This document shows positions 3,169-12,612 of a stretch of DNA of 17,694 nucleotides, piece after piece; within the stretch, counting starts at the first letter, position 1; each line of letters begins with the position of its first letter. The position numbers were made by a program, and so were the translations under genes. The notes beneath the pieces were generated by a model that worked only from the letters and a program-made list of their open reading frames with translations, did no database searches and had not been told where the DNA came from. Source of the stretch: Flavobacteriaceae bacterium (GTDB lineage Bacteria; Bacteroidota; Bacteroidia; Flavobacteriales; Flavobacteriaceae); NCBI GenBank assembly GCA_002693605.1, contig NZQO01000119.1, forward strand, positions 1-17,694. The letters run 5' to 3'.

Positions 3169-4122
3169 ATGAAAAAATATACAGACACAGGCAAGAAAGA
3201 CACACGTTCGGGATTCGGCGCGGGCCTAACCGAATTGGGCAAAACCAACGAGCAGGTGGTTGCGCTCTGCGCAGATCTTACCGGTTCGCTAAAAATGGAC
3301 GAGTTCAAGGAAAACCATCCCGACCGCTTTTTCCAAGTGGGAATTGCCGAGGCGAACATGATGGGAATGGCGGCGGGCATGACCATTGGCGGAAAGATTC
3401 CGTTTACCGGGACCTTTGCCAATTTTTCAACCGGGAGGGTGTACGACCAAATTAGGCAGAGCATTGCCTATAGCGGTAAGAATGTGAAAATTTGCGCCTC
3501 GCACGCCGGCCTGACATTGGGCGAAGATGGCGCTACGCATCAAATACTGGAAGATATCGGACTCATGAAGATGCTTCCCGGAATGACGGTCATAAACACC
3601 TGTGATTATAACCAAACCAAGGCCGCGACATTGGCAATCGCCGAATACGACGGGCCCGTGTATTTGCGTTTCGGACGCCCAAAGGTGGCGAATTTCACCC
3701 CAGAAAATGGTTCATTTGAAATTGGAAAGGCCGTGCACCTTCAAGAAGGAAGCGACGTAACCCTTGTTGCTACGGGACATTTAGTATGGGAAGCGCTTCA
3801 GGCAGCAGCCCAACTACAGGAGGAAGGAATTACCGCTGATGTGATAAATATTCACACCATTAAACCTTTGGACAATAAAGCGATTATTTCCAGCGTTAAA
3901 AAAACAGGGTGCGTGGTTACCGCCGAAGAGCATAATTATCTTGGTGGTCTTGGTGAGAGCGTTGCCCGTGTATTAGCCGAGAATGTCCCAACACCTCAAG
4001 AATTTATCGCTACACAAGATACCTTTGGCGAATCGGGAACCCCCGAGCAGCTGATGGAAAAATATGGTTTAAATGCCGACGCAATCGTGAAAGCGGCAAA
4101 AAAAGTGATTGCACGCAAGTAA
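3169..4122 (+). CDS. Transketolase, C-terminal (pyrimidine-binding plus C-terminal domain) subunit
   Basis: This is the second half of the split transketolase and should assemble with the product of the preceding gene. It has 317 residues. The pyrimidine-binding domain begins near residue 10. It contains FFQVGIAEANMMGMAAGM (54-71), in which Glu61 is the expected catalytic glutamate that activates thiamine diphosphate. Next comes the GEDGATHQ segment, which contributes histidine to the active site. The C-terminal transketolase domain follows (VTLVATGHLVWEALQAA, then TAEEHNYLGGLGESVA). The same layout occurs in the E1 beta subunits of 2-oxoacid dehydrogenases and in DXS, but the adjacent N-terminal partner fixes the assignment. 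It is the last gene of the operon and is followed after about 20 bp by a strong terminator. Confidence 0.95.
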   Translation: MKKYTDTGKKDTRSGFGAGLTELGKTNEQVVALCADLTGSLKMDEFKENHPDRFFQVGIAEANMMGMAAGMTIGGKIPFTGTFANFSTGRVYDQIRQSIAYSGKNVKICASHAGLTLGEDGATHQILEDIGLMKMLPGMTVINTCDYNQTKAATLAIAEYDGPVYLRFGRPKVANFTPENGSFEIGKAVHLQEGSDVTLVATGHLVWEALQAAAQLQEEGITADVINIHTIKPLDNKAIISSVKKTGCVVTAEEHNYLGGLGESVARVLAENVPTPQEFIATQDTFGESGTPEQLMEKYGLNADAIVKAAKKVIARK

Positions 4123-6730: not shown

Positions 6731-6803
6731 GACTTGGTAGCTCAGTTGGTAGAGCATCTCCCTTTTAAGGAGAGGGTCCTGGGTTCGAGCCCCAGCCAAG
6801 TCA
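6731..6803 (+). tRNA. tRNA-Lys, anticodon TTT
   Basis: A complete cloverleaf of 73 nt can be drawn: acceptor GACTTGG with CCAAGTC, D arm GCTC/GAGC, anticodon stem TCTCC/GGAGA around loop CTTTTAA (anticodon TTT), and T arm CTGGG/CCCAG around TTCGAGC. The discriminator is A. The 3' CCA is not encoded. A promoter lies directly upstream and an intrinsic terminator directly downstream, so it is a single-gene transcript. Confidence 0.98.
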
Positions 6804-6810
6804 CAAAAGC

Positions 6811-7830: not shown

Positions 7831-7914
7831 GCCCAGGTGCTGGCACTGGTAGACAGGCATGGTTGAGGGCCATGTGTCCATTAGGGCGTGTGGGTTCGAG
7901 TCCCATCCTGGGCA
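7831..7914 (+). tRNA. tRNA-Leu, anticodon GAG
   Basis: An 84-nt class II tRNA. The acceptor is GCCCAGG with CCTGGGC, the anticodon stem CATGG/CCATG surrounds loop TTGAGGG (anticodon GAG), and there is a long variable arm (GTCC, loop ATTA, GGGC). The T arm is GTGGG/CCCAT around TTCGAGT. The discriminator is A and CCA is not encoded. Confidence 0.97.
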
Positions 7915-7920
7915 CGCAAG

Positions 7921-8047: not shown

Positions 8048-8077
8048 TGTTTATAATATTTCACAAAATATTAAACA
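8048..8077. promoter_or_regulatory. Candidate operator upstream of merR (TGTTTA-N18-TAAACA)
   Basis: TGTTTA (8048-8053) and TAAACA (8072-8077) are perfect inverted half-sites 18 bp apart, 49 bp before the merR start codon. The right half covers the expected -33 region of a degenerate -7 box, TACTTTCA (8094-8101). The same half-sites at the same spacing recur at the crtI promoter, suggesting autoregulation. Confidence 0.6.
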
Positions 8078-8126
8078 ATATTATTATTTTTCGTACTTTC
8101 ACCACATAAAATTATCACCAAGGCAC

Positions 8127-9050
8127 ATGCAGGTAAAGACTGAATTCAGCATTAAGGACCTCGAAAACTTAAGCGGCGTCAAGGCGCACACTATAAGAAT
8201 CTGGGAGAAACGGTATAACCTGCTGGAACCTGACCGGACCGATACCAATATTAGGAAGTATGACCTGCGCCATCTCAAAAAACTGTTGAACGTTGCCTTT
8301 TTGTATAATGAAGGACATAAAATCTCAAAGATAGCAGAACTGGGTGAGAGCGAAATCCAAAACCTAATTAAGGAGCAATCTGAACGGCAAAAGGAAATTT
8401 ACGCCATACAGTCGTTCAAACAGGCCATGTTTGCCTTCGACTCACAACTGTTTTCGGCCACGTATAAAAAACTAACGGCAGAGCAACCCTTCAATGAAAT
8501 TTTCTTCCAGGTATTTCTTCCATTGTTGGAGGAAATAGGACTTCTTTGGCAAACGGGCACGATAGATCCGGCGCACGAGCGCTTTATTTCGGAACTCATA
8601 AAACAAAAGATAATAATCCATATAGAGGAAGCACAATCGGAGAGAAAAACTGCCGGTCCTACCCTATTCACGCTGTACCTGCCCTACGGAGAGATCCATG
8701 AAATCGGCTTGCTGTACGCTAACTACGAAATTTTACGGGCCGGCTTCAAGACTATTTACCTAGGTGCCAACATTCCGCTGGATAATTTAAAGCACATCCG
8801 GAGTCACCACGACGACGTAATTTTCCTTTCGTATTTTACCGTAACTCCAGAAAGAGGCGCACTGGAAGACTACCTAACCAATTACCAAAACGAAATTTGC
8901 GGCAAGACCCCTTGCGAAATTTGGCTTATGGGACAACAAGCCCAGGCCTTAGACAAAAAATCATTGGCCAAGAACCGCAACGTGAGTATCATTTCATCTA
9001 TAAATCAACTAACCTCTAAATTAGAATCATTAAAAATATCACAAATTTAA
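8127..9050 (+). CDS. MerR-family regulator with cobalamin-binding-like domain (CarH/LitR-like), probable regulator of the carotenoid genes
   Basis: This is a predicted transcription factor of 307 residues. Residues 5-70 are a MerR-type winged helix (FSIKDLENLSGVKAHTIRIWEKRYNLLEPDRT). Residues 95-170 correspond to the four-helix cap domain and 175-300 to the B12-binding fold. The lower axial cobalamin ligand motif ExHxxG is intact (EIHEIG, His191), followed by YLGANIPLDNL. In CarH the cap carries W-x9-E-H; here it is Trp141 ... Glu151-Arg152, so the histidine is replaced, and the downstream GG is GQQ. CarH/LitR proteins repress carotenoid genes in the dark as an adenosylcobalamin-bound tetramer. 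A lineage member may or may not still sense light. It lies 49 bp before crtI on the same strand, and both promoters share an inverted repeat. Confidence 0.88.
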   Translation: MQVKTEFSIKDLENLSGVKAHTIRIWEKRYNLLEPDRTDTNIRKYDLRHLKKLLNVAFLYNEGHKISKIAELGESEIQNLIKEQSERQKEIYAIQSFKQAMFAFDSQLFSATYKKLTAEQPFNEIFFQVFLPLLEEIGLLWQTGTIDPAHERFISELIKQKIIIHIEEAQSERKTAGPTLFTLYLPYGEIHEIGLLYANYEILRAGFKTIYLGANIPLDNLKHIRSHHDDVIFLSYFTVTPERGALEDYLTNYQNEICGKTPCEIWLMGQQAQALDKKSLAKNRNVSIISSINQLTSKLESLKISQI

Positions 9051-9067
9051 TACGAGGGCGTTTATTT

Positions 9068-9097
9068 TGTTTAATTTTTAATTACTTTCGTTAAACA
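9068..9097. promoter_or_regulatory. Candidate operator over the crtI promoter (TGTTTA-N18-TAAACA)
   Basis: A perfect 10-bp inverted repeat, TTTTGTTTAA (9065-9074) and TTAAACAAAA (9091-9100), brackets the likely -7 box TACTTTCG (9083-9090). The core TGTTTA-N18-TAAACA matches the one upstream of merR in sequence and spacing. A protein bound here would cover the promoter and the start of transcription, as expected for repression. Confidence 0.65.
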
Positions 9098-9099
9098 AA

Positions 9100-10560
9100 A
9101 TGAAACAGAACATTTCCATTATCGGTTCCGGATTTTCTTCCCTTGCCGCGTCCTGCTACCTCGCGAAGGCCGGGCATACCGTAACTATTTTCGAGAAGAA
9201 CGCCACAATTGGGGGCAGGGCCCGGCAGTTCAAAAAAGAAGGTTTCACGTTCGACATGGGCCCTACGTGGTACTGGATGCCCGATGTATTCGAGCGGTTT
9301 TTTGCCGATTTCGGAAAGCGACCGGAAGATTTCTACAGTCTTGAAAAACTAGCACCGGCCTATTCAGTATACTTCGGAAAGGAAGATTTTATTACCATTG
9401 AGGATACGCTCGAGAAAATCTACCGCACTTTTGAGAACGAAGAACCAGGAAGCGCTGAGAAACTTCGCAAGTTCATTACCGAGGCACAGGATAACTACGA
9501 GGTCGCCATCAAAAATCTGGTATATCGTCCCGGCGTTTCCCCGCTGGAACTCGTTACACCCGTAACGGTAAGGAAAATAGACCAGTTTTTCAGCACCATC
9601 AGTAAAAAGGTCAGGAAGGAATTCAACAATCCCAGGCTCGTTTCCATCTTGGAGTTCCCGGTATTGTTCCTGGGCGCAAAGCCCTCCAACACCCCGGCGT
9701 TTTACAGTTTTATGAATTATGCCGATTTCGGCCTGGGAACATTCCACCCCCAAAAAGGGATGTACTCGGTAATTGAGGGAATGGCTTCTCTGGCACGTAG
9801 TCTTGGAGTAACCATAGAGACCAACAGCAATGTCGAGAAAATTGAAGTGCAGGACAAAAACGCCATCGGCCTCGTTATAAATGGACAGCTCGTGCCCTCG
9901 GAAATCGTCCTGAGCGGGGCCGACTATCACCACACCGAAACCTTGTTGGAAGATCGCTACCGGCAATATTCTGAAAAGTACTGGGGCAACAAAACGTTTG
10001 CGCCCTCATCGTTGCTATTTTACGTGGGTTTTGAAACGCCCATAAAAAATGTGGAACACCATACGCTGTTCTTCGATGTCGATTTCGAAGCGCATGCCAG
10101 GGCAATTTACGATACCCCACAGTGGCCCGAGAATCCGCTTTTCTATGCCAGCTTTCCATCAAAAACCGATGCGAGCGTAGCGCCAGAGGGCAAGGAGGCC
10201 GGTATTTTCCTAATTCCCCTGGCGCCCGGAATAAAGGATACTCCGGTTTTACGAGAAGCCTATTTCGAAAAAATTATCGCCCGTTTTGAGGCGCTAACCA
10301 ACCAAGAAGTAAAAAAATCCGTTATATTTAAAGAATCGTATTGCTTAAACGATTTTGTGGAAGACTACAATTCGTACAAGGGAAATGCCTACGGCTTGGC
10401 AAATACGCTCTTGCAGACCGCATTTTTACGGCCTAACTTAAAGAGCAAAAAAGTCAAGAACCTATTTTTTACGGGACAGCTTACCGTTCCCGGACCGGGG
10501 GTGCCGCCCTCGCTGATCTCGGGTAAATTGGCCGCAGGTTTAATTGAAAAAGAAAAATAA
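9100..10560 (+). CDS. crtI: Phytoene desaturase
   Basis: This is a flavoprotein that introduces double bonds into 15-cis-phytoene, in the four-step CrtI type giving all-trans-lycopene. Its 486 residues are normal for CrtI. The N-terminus has the FAD dinucleotide-binding signature IIGSGFSSLAASCYLAKAGH, then EKNATIGGRARQF. Next comes FDMGPTWYWMPDVFERFF, typical of CrtI. The C-terminal CrtI signature is FFTGQLTVPGPGVPPSLISG (near 455-475). It is the first enzyme gene of the crt cluster. The ATG at 9100 lies only 9 nt after the candidate -7 box, so the mRNA may be nearly leaderless. Its end touches crtB. A ketolase-like or hydroxyneurosporene desaturase role is less likely given the crtB, crtZ and crtYcd neighbours. 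Confidence 0.96.
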   Translation: MKQNISIIGSGFSSLAASCYLAKAGHTVTIFEKNATIGGRARQFKKEGFTFDMGPTWYWMPDVFERFFADFGKRPEDFYSLEKLAPAYSVYFGKEDFITIEDTLEKIYRTFENEEPGSAEKLRKFITEAQDNYEVAIKNLVYRPGVSPLELVTPVTVRKIDQFFSTISKKVRKEFNNPRLVSILEFPVLFLGAKPSNTPAFYSFMNYADFGLGTFHPQKGMYSVIEGMASLARSLGVTIETNSNVEKIEVQDKNAIGLVINGQLVPSEIVLSGADYHHTETLLEDRYRQYSEKYWGNKTFAPSSLLFYVGFETPIKNVEHHTLFFDVDFEAHARAIYDTPQWPENPLFYASFPSKTDASVAPEGKEAGIFLIPLAPGIKDTPVLREAYFEKIIARFEALTNQEVKKSVIFKESYCLNDFVEDYNSYKGNAYGLANTLLQTAFLRPNLKSKKVKNLFFTGQLTVPGPGVPPSLISGKLAAGLIEKEK

Positions 10561-10564
10561 AATC

Positions 10565-11407
10565 GTGAAAGAAATTTTTGACACCGTATCGCGCAGCTGT
10601 AGCCAATACGTGACCCAGGCGTACAGCACCTCCTTTTCGCTAGCCACGAAAATGCTCGCTCCTTCCATACGGCAGGATATCTATAACATCTATGGCTTTG
10701 TGCGGTTTGCCGATGAGATTGTAGATTCGTTCAACGAGTATCCGCAGCAATTACTATTTGAAAGGTTCGAAACCGATTTATCGAACGCCCTGCAAGAAAA
10801 GATCAGCCTAAACCCTATACTCAATTCGTTTCAACATACCGTACACCGCTATGCCATAGACCAGCACCTTATCGATGCCTTTATGAAAAGTATGCGTCAG
10901 GATTTAAGTAAAACGAATTACCTGAACGAAGCCGAATACCACGACTATATTTACGGCTCGGCCGATGTGGTAGGGCTCATGTGCCTCAAGGTATTTGTGA
11001 AGGGCGACTTGGAAAAGTACGATGCCCTGAAGGATTCGGCACAGCACCTTGGCTCCGCCTTCCAAAAGGTCAATTTCCTGAGGGATTTGAAGGATGATTT
11101 TGAAGGGCTCAATCGTACGTACTTTCCCAATACGAACCTGCACGCACTCGACGAGATTTCAAAGGAAAAAATAATCGCCGAAATCGAAGAAGATTTCAGA
11201 TTGGGCTACCAAGGCATCCTGCACCTGCCGGCAGAGGCAAAATTTGGCGTGTATATGGCCTATAGGTACTATCGCCGACTGTTAAAAAAACTGCACCGCA
11301 CCCCTGCGCTGGAAATCAAGAACAAGCGCATTCGCGTGCCAAACTATGAAAAATTCGGGTTGCTAACGCGTTGTTACGTCAAGTACCAATTGAAATTGGT
11401 AAGATAA
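10565..11407 (+). CDS. crtB: Phytoene synthase
   Basis: This enzyme condenses two geranylgeranyl diphosphates head to head to 15-cis-phytoene. It has 280 residues from GTG at 10565, and starts KEIFDTVSRSCSQYVTQAYSTSFS as flavobacterial homologues do. An in-frame TTG at 10544 would give 287 residues and a 17-bp overlap with crtI. There is no ATG near the expected N-terminus. The two Mg-diphosphate motifs are FADEIVD (Asp50, Asp54) and NFLRDLKDD (Asp174, Asp178), followed by RTYFP. The GTG is 4 nt after the crtI stop, so translation is probably coupled. Squalene synthases share the fold, but length, motifs and neighbours favour CrtB. Confidence 0.95.
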   Translation: MKEIFDTVSRSCSQYVTQAYSTSFSLATKMLAPSIRQDIYNIYGFVRFADEIVDSFNEYPQQLLFERFETDLSNALQEKISLNPILNSFQHTVHRYAIDQHLIDAFMKSMRQDLSKTNYLNEAEYHDYIYGSADVVGLMCLKVFVKGDLEKYDALKDSAQHLGSAFQKVNFLRDLKDDFEGLNRTYFPNTNLHALDEISKEKIIAEIEEDFRLGYQGILHLPAEAKFGVYMAYRYYRRLLKKLHRTPALEIKNKRIRVPNYEKFGLLTRCYVKYQLKLVR

Positions 11408-11419
11408 CCAGTATCTTTG
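11384..11419 (+). promoter_or_regulatory. Internal promoter for crtZ-crtYcd with overlapping inverted repeat
   Basis: TTG at 11390-11392, a 19-bp spacer and TATCTTTG at 11412-11419 fit the Bacteroidota consensus. Transcription would start near 11425, 40 nt before crtZ. A perfect inverted repeat, TACCAATT-GA-AATTGGTA (11384-11401), sits on the -33 element at the very end of crtB. Confidence 0.6.
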
Positions 11420-11464
11420 CGCAAGACACCCAAAGCGAATCTACTAATTGTTTTTTTTTCTGAA

Positions 11465-11914
11465 ATGGATATTTTTCTCTGGATATTGACATTTGTTACC
11501 ACCTTCTGCATTATGGAATTTATGGCTTGGTTTACCCATAAATATATTATGCACGGTTTCTTATGGAGTCTACATAAAGATCACCATAAAAAGGACCATG
11601 GCAGCTGGTGGGAGCGAAACGACCTGTTTTTTATCTTTTACGCTACGGTAAGCATTGGGTGCTTTGTGGCCTGGCAATATTACGATGTATGGGCCGGGCT
11701 GCCGGTAGGACTCGGAATTTTCGCCTACGGGGCCACCTATTTCCTGGTGCACGATATATTTATACACCAACGGTTCAAGATGTTCCGCAATGCCAATAAT
11801 TGGTATGCCAAGGGAATACGGCGCGCGCATAAAATACACCACAAACACCTTGGGAAGAATAAGGGTGAGTGCTTCGGGATGCTGTTTCCGCCGCTGAAAT
11901 ATTTCAAGAAATAG
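11465..11914 (+). CDS. crtZ: Beta-carotene hydroxylase
   Basis: This is a membrane di-iron hydroxylase of the fatty-acid-hydroxylase superfamily. It adds 3- and 3'-hydroxyls to beta-carotene, giving beta-cryptoxanthin and then zeaxanthin. It has 149 residues from ATG at 11465. The diagnostic histidine boxes are complete: HKYIMH (25-30), HKDHH (37-41), HDIFIH (96-101) and HKIHH (122-126). Hydrophobic segments lie near 3-22, 54-72 and 78-98. An upstream TTG (11417) is in frame but falls inside a promoter box, so it is rejected as the start. It sits 57 bp after crtB and 2 bp before the cyclase gene. Confidence 0.96.
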   Translation: MDIFLWILTFVTTFCIMEFMAWFTHKYIMHGFLWSLHKDHHKKDHGSWWERNDLFFIFYATVSIGCFVAWQYYDVWAGLPVGLGIFAYGATYFLVHDIFIHQRFKMFRNANNWYAKGIRRAHKIHHKHLGKNKGECFGMLFPPLKYFKK

Positions 11915-11916
11915 CG

Positions 11917-12612
11917 ATGGACACACTTTATCTGTGGCTTAACCTAGGGTCGTTTTCCATCCCGTTTCTATTCAGTTTCCATCCGCGGCTCCAGTTCCAT
12001 AAAAAATGGCCGGCATTTTTCCCCGCACTGTTTATTATGATGGCGGTCTTCCTTCCTTGGGACATTCTGTTTACGGAGTCCGGATTCTGGGGCTTCAATA
12101 GTAAATATGTTACGGACGCCTATTTTCTTGGTCTTCCACTAGAAGAATGGCTCTTTTTTCTGTGTATTCCCTATGCCTGTATCTTCACACATTATGCACT
12201 GCTAACGTTATTCCCGGATTTTAGGTTCTCCAAACGCGCTACAGACATTATTTACTTACTACTCGTCACTTCCCTAATCTTGGCATTGTGGTATTATTAC
12301 GATAGGTGGTACACCTTTGTAAATTTCAGCTATGCGCTTATACTCCTGGGCCTCGTATATAACAGTAACAGCTCACTACTGCGTAGTTTCTTTGCCACCT
12401 ATTTAGTAATCCTCATCCCATTTTTTCTGGTGAATGGCGCCTTGACGGGCTATTTTACCGAAACACCGGTAGTTTGGTATAACAATGCCGAAAATATGGG
12501 ACTTCGCTTGGGAACGATTCCCGTGGAGGACATTATCTACAATCTTGGAATGCTCCTAACGGTATTATGGTGCACCGAAATGTTCCTAGCTCGTAAATCT
12601 TCTACGAATTAA
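11917..12612 (+). CDS. crtYcd: Fused CrtYcd-type lycopene beta-cyclase
   Basis: This is an integral membrane lycopene cyclase of 231 residues with two tandem lycopene-cyclase domains. They correspond to the separate CrtYc and CrtYd subunits of actinobacteria and to the cyclase half of fungal bifunctional proteins. The first repeat carries PWDILFTESGFWGF and the signature PLEEWLFF (74-81). The second carries GLRLGTIPVEDIIYN with PVED (202-205). About six membrane helices are apparent. It converts lycopene to beta-carotene, the substrate of the hydroxylase encoded just upstream. ATG at 11917 follows the crtZ stop by 2 nt. Its TAA stop shares bases with the stop of the convergent tlpA-like gene. 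Confidence 0.94.
   Translation: MDTLYLWLNLGSFSIPFLFSFHPRLQFHKKWPAFFPALFIMMAVFLPWDILFTESGFWGFNSKYVTDAYFLGLPLEEWLFFLCIPYACIFTHYALLTLFPDFRFSKRATDIIYLLLVTSLILALWYYYDRWYTFVNFSYALILLGLVYNSNSSLLRSFFATYLVILIPFFLVNGALTGYFTETPVVWYNNAENMGLRLGTIPVEDIIYNLGMLLTVLWCTEMFLARKSSTN

Follow-up and report, generated by a model that had tools for sequence, protein, structure and literature searches.

An inverted repeat with an 18-bp spacer as the probable operator of a CarH/LitR-like MerR regulator at carotenoid and stress-related genes of Bacteroidia

In the window, i.e. the whole 17,694-nucleotide stretch of Flavobacteriaceae DNA analysed here, the same inverted repeat lies upstream of a gene for a CarH/LitR-like regulator and upstream of the carotenoid genes following it, which raises the question whether this repeat is the operator of the protein encoded between its two copies. 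The regulator gene merR (8127-9050, forward strand, as are all genes of the locus; 307 aa) codes for a MerR-type HTH, a B12-binding_2 cap and a Rossmann-like domain. It is followed by crtI encoding phytoene desaturase (9100-10560; NCBIfam NF058655 CrtID, above cut-off), which is supposed to head the controlled operon. To the same operon presumably belong a crtB-like phytoene synthase gene (10544-11407; Pfam SQS_PSY), an ORF at 11417-11914 which we take from its position and His motifs to encode a crtZ-like beta-carotene hydroxylase and which has no match in Pfam or NCBIfam, and a lycopene cyclase gene with a CarR domain (11869-12612; Pfam Lycopene_cyc, TIGR03462). The window also contains a tRNA-Lys gene (6731-6804) and a tRNA-Leu gene (7831-7915), the latter upstream of the merR promoter region.

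The pattern TGTTTA-N18-TAAACA occurs exactly twice in the window and precisely where the first-pass annotation had placed it: upstream of merR at 8048-8077 (arms TGTTTA 8048-8053 and TAAACA 8072-8077) and at the crtI promoter at 9068-9097 (arms 9068-9073 and 9092-9097), both copies having a spacer of 18 nt and no strand assigned. Dinucleotide-preserving shuffles of the window (n=200) gave a mean of 0.00 exact matches. At crtI the arms extend, as had been claimed, to a perfect 10-bp inverted repeat, TTTTGTTTAA at 9065-9074 being fully complementary to TTAAACAAAA at 9091-9100 (93% complementarity over 14 nt), and they indeed bracket a likely -7 box, TACTTTCG (9083-9090, forward strand, operator positions 16-23), with one mismatch to TAnnTTTG. 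The suggested location of the right merR half-site at -33 is tentative, as it depends on a weak -7 candidate, TACTTTCA at 8094-8101, with two mismatches.

The genome from which the window originates (2.19 Mb, 68% complete) contains seven exact copies and the reversed control none, in line with the rarity elsewhere in the genome that had been named beforehand as a test of the proposal. Exact arm pairs with spacers of 6 to 30 nt number 13 in this genome (pooled reversed control: 8), seven of them having spacer 18 and the remaining 24 spacers sharing six; a 14-base form, TGTTTAA-N16-TTAAACA with two mismatches allowed, was unspecific (22 forward vs 28 control). The assumption that only two promoters are concerned proved too narrow. 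Further copies are found upstream of flavin reductase-like, DNA photolyase-family and DPRP-type photolyase-related genes (contig C118), in front of a TetR_C_23 gene that has an ABC1 kinase-like gene behind it (C114, 2567) and 11 nt before the beginning of a DUF4397 gene (C86), and a copy with one mismatch overlaps the start of msrA, after which folE comes next (C127). Past the ABC1 gene, another exact copy (C114, 4674-4703; L006) has no gene start nearby, possibly belonging to a small RNA or an unannotated short gene.

The copy on contig C148 was excluded from the regulon count because it lies in an unrelated repeated element common to genomes G044, G017 and G014, and it is probably a chance match. 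This near-identical element, TGTTTAAGCAYCTAATTTAGCNAATAAACA, is located at 3512-3541 of locus L008 (C148), at 1583 of L069, at 1664 of L099 and at G014:C1:2232552; its flanks are conserved in L008, L069 and L099, and the neighbouring genes in L008 converge on it. The tRNA/tmRNA search of L008 gave no match at the element and the Rfam search of L008, L069 and L099 none for it; as a guess, it might be a mobile element, either resembling an integron attC site or of another kind, that matches the operator pattern by chance.

Conservation at orthologous promoters had likewise been set beforehand as a test, and it was found at the 30 best-matching merR loci, the window's own included, in all of which crtI follows merR. 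With one mismatch allowed, a spacer-18 site is present between merR and crtI in 24/30 loci (20 exact) and upstream of merR in 19/30 (15 exact), being absent upstream of merR in the other 11, and the remaining spacers of the 0-40 range together gave one exact pair per side. All 24 loci with a merR-crtI gap of at least 43 nt have the site (20 exact, four with one mismatch) compared to none of the six with a gap of at most 24 nt. Within the 60 promoter zones of these 30 loci, the inverted form TGTnnA-N18-TnnACA occurs 42 times, compared to a mean of 0.33 and a maximum of 2 in shuffles. Tandem TnnACA at 11 bp is found there as a pair once on each strand (shuffles: means 0.47 and 0.27) and as a triplet in no zone, and the Pseudomonas form T(G/A)TACA-N12-TGTA(C/T)A does not occur. 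A search for related loci among genome contigs gave a single locus (L009), which has one exact site immediately before its merR. We added three extensions within the family and 17 outside regions, which are no random sample as they were picked for sites or a MerR match; in three of these 17 (L119, L122, L123) no merR was found. In other families, 14 merR loci selected for their sites or matches show by script count an exact site downstream in nine cases and upstream in one; L116 and L118 were scored as lacking an upstream site since the script put the gene start inside the site, which lies directly before merR in both.

Across 489 genomes, an excess of the motif is confined to those in which the regulator was found. 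We defined a strong MerR match by a best E-value below 1e-50, a cut chosen after seeing the gap between the weakest strong (3.2e-53) and the strongest weak match (1.5e-46). Within the family (n=249), the 185 genomes with a strong match hold 1032 exact sites vs 223 in the reversed control, whereas the other 64 hold 90 vs 73, composed of 30 vs 19 in 17 genomes with a weak match and 60 vs 54 in 47 genomes without match. Outside the family (n=240), 351 sites vs 137 in the control were counted in the 145 genomes with a MerR match and 73 vs 93 in the 95 genomes without. Because the genomes are related, these are strong associations and not independent events. At most one TGTTTA site is present in six of the 185 strong-MerR genomes; two, G135 and G092, have none at all, which is unexplained for G092. 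G135 carries two CarH-like genes (L155, L164), with Val25 and Lys25, and has no exact TGTTTA site and two exact TGTCTA sites.

The residue numbering refers to the recognition helix of the window MerR (helix 20-30 in the model), in which Ile25, encoded at 8199-8201 on the forward strand, co-varies with operator base 4. A diverged MerR group of 16 loci (support 100/100), recognised on reading the loci of weak-match MerRs and located beside fasciclin genes in 7/7 tested, has Lys25 in 15/16 loci vs 0/47 others, 44 of which have Ile. The form TGTCTA-N18-TAGACA was first seen exactly in two of seven intergenic regions of these diverged MerRs and then sought family-wide. It is found upstream of merR in 13/16 loci of the diverged group with one mismatch (five exact), with 19 of the matches in this group at spacer 18, five at 19 and a single one at any other spacer between 8 and 30. 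In the 249 genomes, 18 of 46 exact TGTCTA sites, a number including the two discovery loci, lie in the 15 Lys25 genomes (reversed control there: 7), compared to 28 sites vs 52 in the control elsewhere in the family; the Lys25 genomes have no clear excess of TGTTTA sites (20 vs 16). In five of the Lys25 genomes, G032, G168, G184, G202 and G221, TGTCTA sites are at most about 170 nt upstream of merR. The Ile25 member of the diverged clade, in G025, has neither the TGTTTA nor the TGTCTA form upstream of its merR, and TGTTTA sites number five in its genome (control 0); two of these were examined and lie near a fasciclin-like gene and a 142-aa gene. Ile25 is also present in the weak matches of G007 and G240, in both of which a TGTTTA site immediately precedes merR. 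The tree has the Ile25 member as the earliest branch of the clade and needs a single origin of Lys25 (support 90/71), for which reason the co-variation counts as one event. A Lys reading the G of TAGACA would be chemically sensible, and the sequences suggest that the change in half-site at the same spacing tracks the MerR recognition-helix residue, one event, though a telling one.

As the motif is enriched only together with the regulator and differs where the DNA-reading part of the regulator differs, the sites are very likely the operators of the window's CarH/LitR-like MerR. The conservation and rarity of the motif, its co-occurrence with the regulator in 489 genomes and the co-variation of residue 25 with the half-site all favour the proposal that this protein has operators at the promoters of merR and of the crt genes.

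How far the regulator deserves to be called CarH-like differs for its features: its fold and its context, beside crtI in 30/30 loci, speak for the name, and the Wx9EH motif, which the window protein lacks, speaks against it. Pfam detects the MerR HTH and the B12-binding_2 four-helix cap, the Rossmann subdomain being below Pfam listing, and the PDB sequence search matches TtCarH. The AlphaFold model (mean pLDDT 90.7) has Thermus CarH 5c8e as top Foldseek match (E 2.5e-15, TM 0.55, whole chain), with 5c8d also among the best, and its cobalamin-binding part aligns to CarH with a TM of about 0.8 by target length and 3.5 Å; according to the model, the window MerR possesses the whole CarH fold including the four-helix and Rossmann subdomains. 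The ExHxxG motif with the lower-ligand His is present (E189, H191, G194), E189 and H191 being conserved in 30/30 family loci and G194 in 29/30. Wx9EH, described in the excerpted text of PMC8156234 as capping Ado and as absolutely conserved in the CarH homologues studied there, is replaced by Wx9ER in the window protein. The 30 family loci comprise 9 EH, 19 ER and 2 ES, whereas other groups have EH in 33/33. The light-state upper-ligand His beside the Trp is absent in 27/30 family loci, 24/30 having Gln, and the B12 motif ends in GQ in the window, not in GG, which is found in 3/36 orthologues (L054 was left out of this alignment, being from the same genome as L027). The window MerR scores 77 bits with NCBIfam NF052513 CarH, below the cut-off of 400. 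Because the window protein is devoid of Wx9EH, B12-based light sensing is for this protein a presumption. As the lower-ligand ExH is kept in 30/30 family loci and Wx9EH is intact in 33/33 loci of the other groups, the ancestral form looks AdoCbl-competent; the use of AdoCbl probably goes back to the ancestor, with a possible change in the window's group. In the broad sense, membership of the LitR/CarH superfamily fits a CarH-like protein beside crt/photolyase genes with a shared site at promoters, to which it would bind.

The position of the operator relative to the promoter suggests how such a protein might act. The -7 box is numbered -12 to -5 and transcription starts 4-5 nt farther (PMC6847099, in part). 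On the gene strand of the 25 crtI sites, operator position 16 marks the beginning of the exact box TAnnTTTG in 19 and of a relaxed box in 23, compared to none on the opposite strand. The same -7 register is found in 16 of 54 other target sites (other strand: 1) and is absent in 38/54; 13/54 have a box at positions 35-39 and none of 15 merR sites has an exact box at position 16. The bases flanking the arms show no more pairwise symmetry than composition predicts. With predicted start sites, the crtI arms would occupy roughly -27 to -22 and -3 to +3, and in the window crtI transcription is predicted to start near 9095, 5 nt before the ATG, giving a 5-nt leader; in F. johnsoniae, 87% of the transcripts with a probable promoter have leaders longer than 10 nt, according to the accessible portion of PMC6847099.

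These data are consistent with a model according to which the MerR protein encoded between the two repeats would bind both, each arm being a half-site, with the half-sites facing each other 24 bp apart and the right arm TAAACA representing a form of TnnACA. Since the crtI arms surround the -7 box, the bound protein would shut the crtI promoter, by blocking sigma contact or melting, and upstream of merR it would regulate its own gene. The whole account, with repression and light response included, we regard as probable with some reservation, its binding, repression, release by light and role of AdoCbl being presumed steps. For Chryseobacterium lacus, the consulted part of PMC7064467 reports that a crt cluster is induced by light where car and lit genes are absent, so that light induction within the phylum need not depend on a regulator of the window type.

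Beyond the crt genes, the same operator would join carotenoid synthesis with photolyases, FolE pterin synthesis, MsrA, fasciclin and DUF4397 proteins and the TetR-ABC1 pair. For targets, 73 of the 1122 family sites were examined, taken from 13 genomes and leaving out two sites of G059, which has no MerR match. Of the 73, 57 have an ATG ORF of at least 60 aa that starts no more than 80 nt downstream, a figure given without control; five are inside an ORF and 11 elsewhere. The site precedes the TetR gene in 9/13 fetched genomes and the own one, and crtI in six plus the own. A BLAST cluster of 20 rows is centred around fasciclin lipoproteins (four tested, 4/4 Fasciclin), ten of these rows facing an mnmA-like gene named from its motif, and GLPGLI-type proteins account for seven rows (one tested). 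In 8/13 genomes the site precedes the gene of a 142-aa protein, 30-32 nt upstream in five of the eight; this family (member at L083 1635-2063, and relatives), of which one member tested has no Pfam or NCBIfam match, is probably an uncharacterised regulon member. Among the single targets are MsrA, DUF2867, an SRPBCC-like protein followed by a photolyase, and two proteins that score below their NCBIfam cut-offs, one similar to the ketolase CrtW and the other to mevalonate kinase.

In other families of the class, sites precede genes for ECF sigma factor-like proteins, FolE with photolyase, PTPS and a DUF4397 protein, and the ECF sigma factor would be under the same operator as well. The ECF sigma-like loci are L111, L112, L113, L114, L115, L119 and L120, six of seven beside merR; the ECF identity was tested and confirmed by Pfam for L114, one of the seven, and the names of the other ECF genes, of folE in L111 and L121 and of mnmA derive from resemblance, with no family search. 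Tandem operators 42-43 bp apart occur before fasciclin genes divergent from the mnmA-like gene (L071, L102, L107), and at the same distance upstream of ECF sigma-like genes (L112, L113, L114); the distance corresponds to about four helical turns, and bound oligomers may contact each other. The targets are light and oxidation related, comprising carotenoid, DNA-repair and oxidative-stress genes in many Bacteroidia, and from this gene content we infer a light or photo-oxidative stress regulon under one regulator.

As the TetR_C_23 gene has an upstream site in the own genome and in 9/13 fetched genomes, the operator might be owned by another regulator of the regulon, above all this TetR protein. 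TetR is matched in 159 of 249 same-family genomes, those with strong MerR and TetR having a mean of 6.16 sites compared to 3.60 for strong MerR alone, and the 16 genomes with TetR and a weak or no MerR match keep 43 sites vs 19 in the control. From this excess of 24, seven were traced to the divergent Ile25 MerRs of G007, G025 and G240 and eight to the incomplete genomes G079 (81% complete, 610 contigs; regulon-like sites before TetR-ABC1 and SRPBCC-photolyase genes) and G147 (73% complete), in which no MerR was found, while nine remain unexplained. However, where a strong MerR is present but TetR finds no match (42 genomes), the count is 151 sites vs 42 in the control, compared to 47 vs 54 in the 48 genomes with neither a TetR nor a strong MerR match, and the half-site difference tracks the recognition-helix residue of MerR, not TetR; TetR operators are usually short palindromes. 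We therefore set TetR aside as owner of the sites, with some unexplained sites remaining, and consider its ownership very unlikely. It appears more improbable still that the repeat is part of a strong Bacteroidota promoter, with AT-rich spacer and -7 box, and no operator: TAnnTTTG abuts the right arm in the 19/25 crtI and 16/54 other sites mentioned, but it is missing in exact register from all 15 merR sites and from 38/54 others, the genomes without MerR show no motif excess outside the family and hardly any inside, and the spacer is 18.

A different question is what the MerR does once bound. It might be an activator or a sensor of a non-light signal, e.g. oxidative stress, that makes no use of AdoCbl, since Arg or Ser replaces the Wx9EH histidine in 21/30 family loci, the upper-ligand His is mostly absent and the targets include MsrA, FolE and fasciclin proteins. 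This reading is unlikely on balance, in view of the crtI operator arms overlapping the -7/start region in a repressor-like manner and of the retention of the lower-ligand ExH and, in the other groups, of Wx9EH. Binding by the MerR as a repressor of a light-related regulon remains the preferred reading.

Classical MerR activators (MerR, CueR, SoxR) act at a short palindrome between -35 and -10 elements with a spacer of 19-20 bp; the window protein shares the N-terminal MerR HTH with these, but the window arms bracket the -7 box instead. The unlikeness to such palindromes that had been pointed out before is confirmed by the conserved arms at about -27 and +1 with the crtI -7 box in between, the starts being predicted. 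In LitR-LitS of Streptomyces, a MerR-type regulator gene lies beside an ECF sigma factor gene, which is similar to merR beside the ECF sigma-like gene in other Bacteroidia families, whereas in the window crtI follows merR. Closer is CarH of Thermus, Bacillus megaterium and myxobacteria, for which the source excerpts describe the same combination of MerR HTH and B12-binding domains, crt neighbours, a promoter-overlapping operator and a TnnACA half-site. CarH operators consist of tandem 11-bp repeats nnnnTnnACAn (PMC9304148, in part), three in Thermus, four in B. megaterium and some degenerate in myxobacteria (excerpts of PMC9304148 and PMC8156234), in contrast to the two inverted half-sites with N18 found here, and the window protein differs from the CarH described in these excerpts by Wx9ER for Wx9EH and GQ for GG. 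Pseudomonas class II LitR (PplR1/PmlR2), as portrayed in the accessible part of PMC9758184, also belongs to the LitR/CarH family and represses light-induced genes, with TGTACA-type half-sites that lie as a pair over the promoter. Its sites, T(G/A)TACA-N12-TGTA(C/T)A, have a spacing of N12 compared to N18 in the window, and it has only the four-helix B12 subdomain, PmlR2 acting with a LOV partner, whereas the window protein has both subdomains.

A description of a Bacteroidota CarH operator or of a regulon of the CarH/LitR branch was not found in the open-licence literature, most subscription papers being outside its scope, which agrees with the earlier statement that no described flavobacterial operator of such form is known, as far as the open-licence sources extend. 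Usable flavobacterial light transcriptomes were not found in the literature either. For Nonlabens spongiae, a MerR gene is named beside the crt cluster in PMC11855829 (in part), and a three-word search in that text found no regulatory study of it.

The probable operator represented by the two repeats of the window is shared by many families of Bacteroidia. Going further, we tentatively put forward, as a possibility and not as the expected outcome, a Bacteroidia-wide light regulon read by a one-residue code, Ile25 reading TAAACA and Lys25 reading TAGACA, in which the repressors of the window's subclade may have lost the AdoCbl-capping His and may use changed or B12-free sensing, with operator and targets being kept. 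Its 12 bases serve as a handle for the prediction of regulated genes across many families of the class and add unexpected candidates such as fasciclin proteins, MsrA, DUF4397 and the 142-aa protein, and the operator is placed precisely against the unusual Bacteroidota -7 box. Residue 25 would represent a natural specificity switch. Finally, our data suggest that CarH-type half-sites are usable inverted as well as in tandem, which bears on how the CarH oligomer meets DNA.
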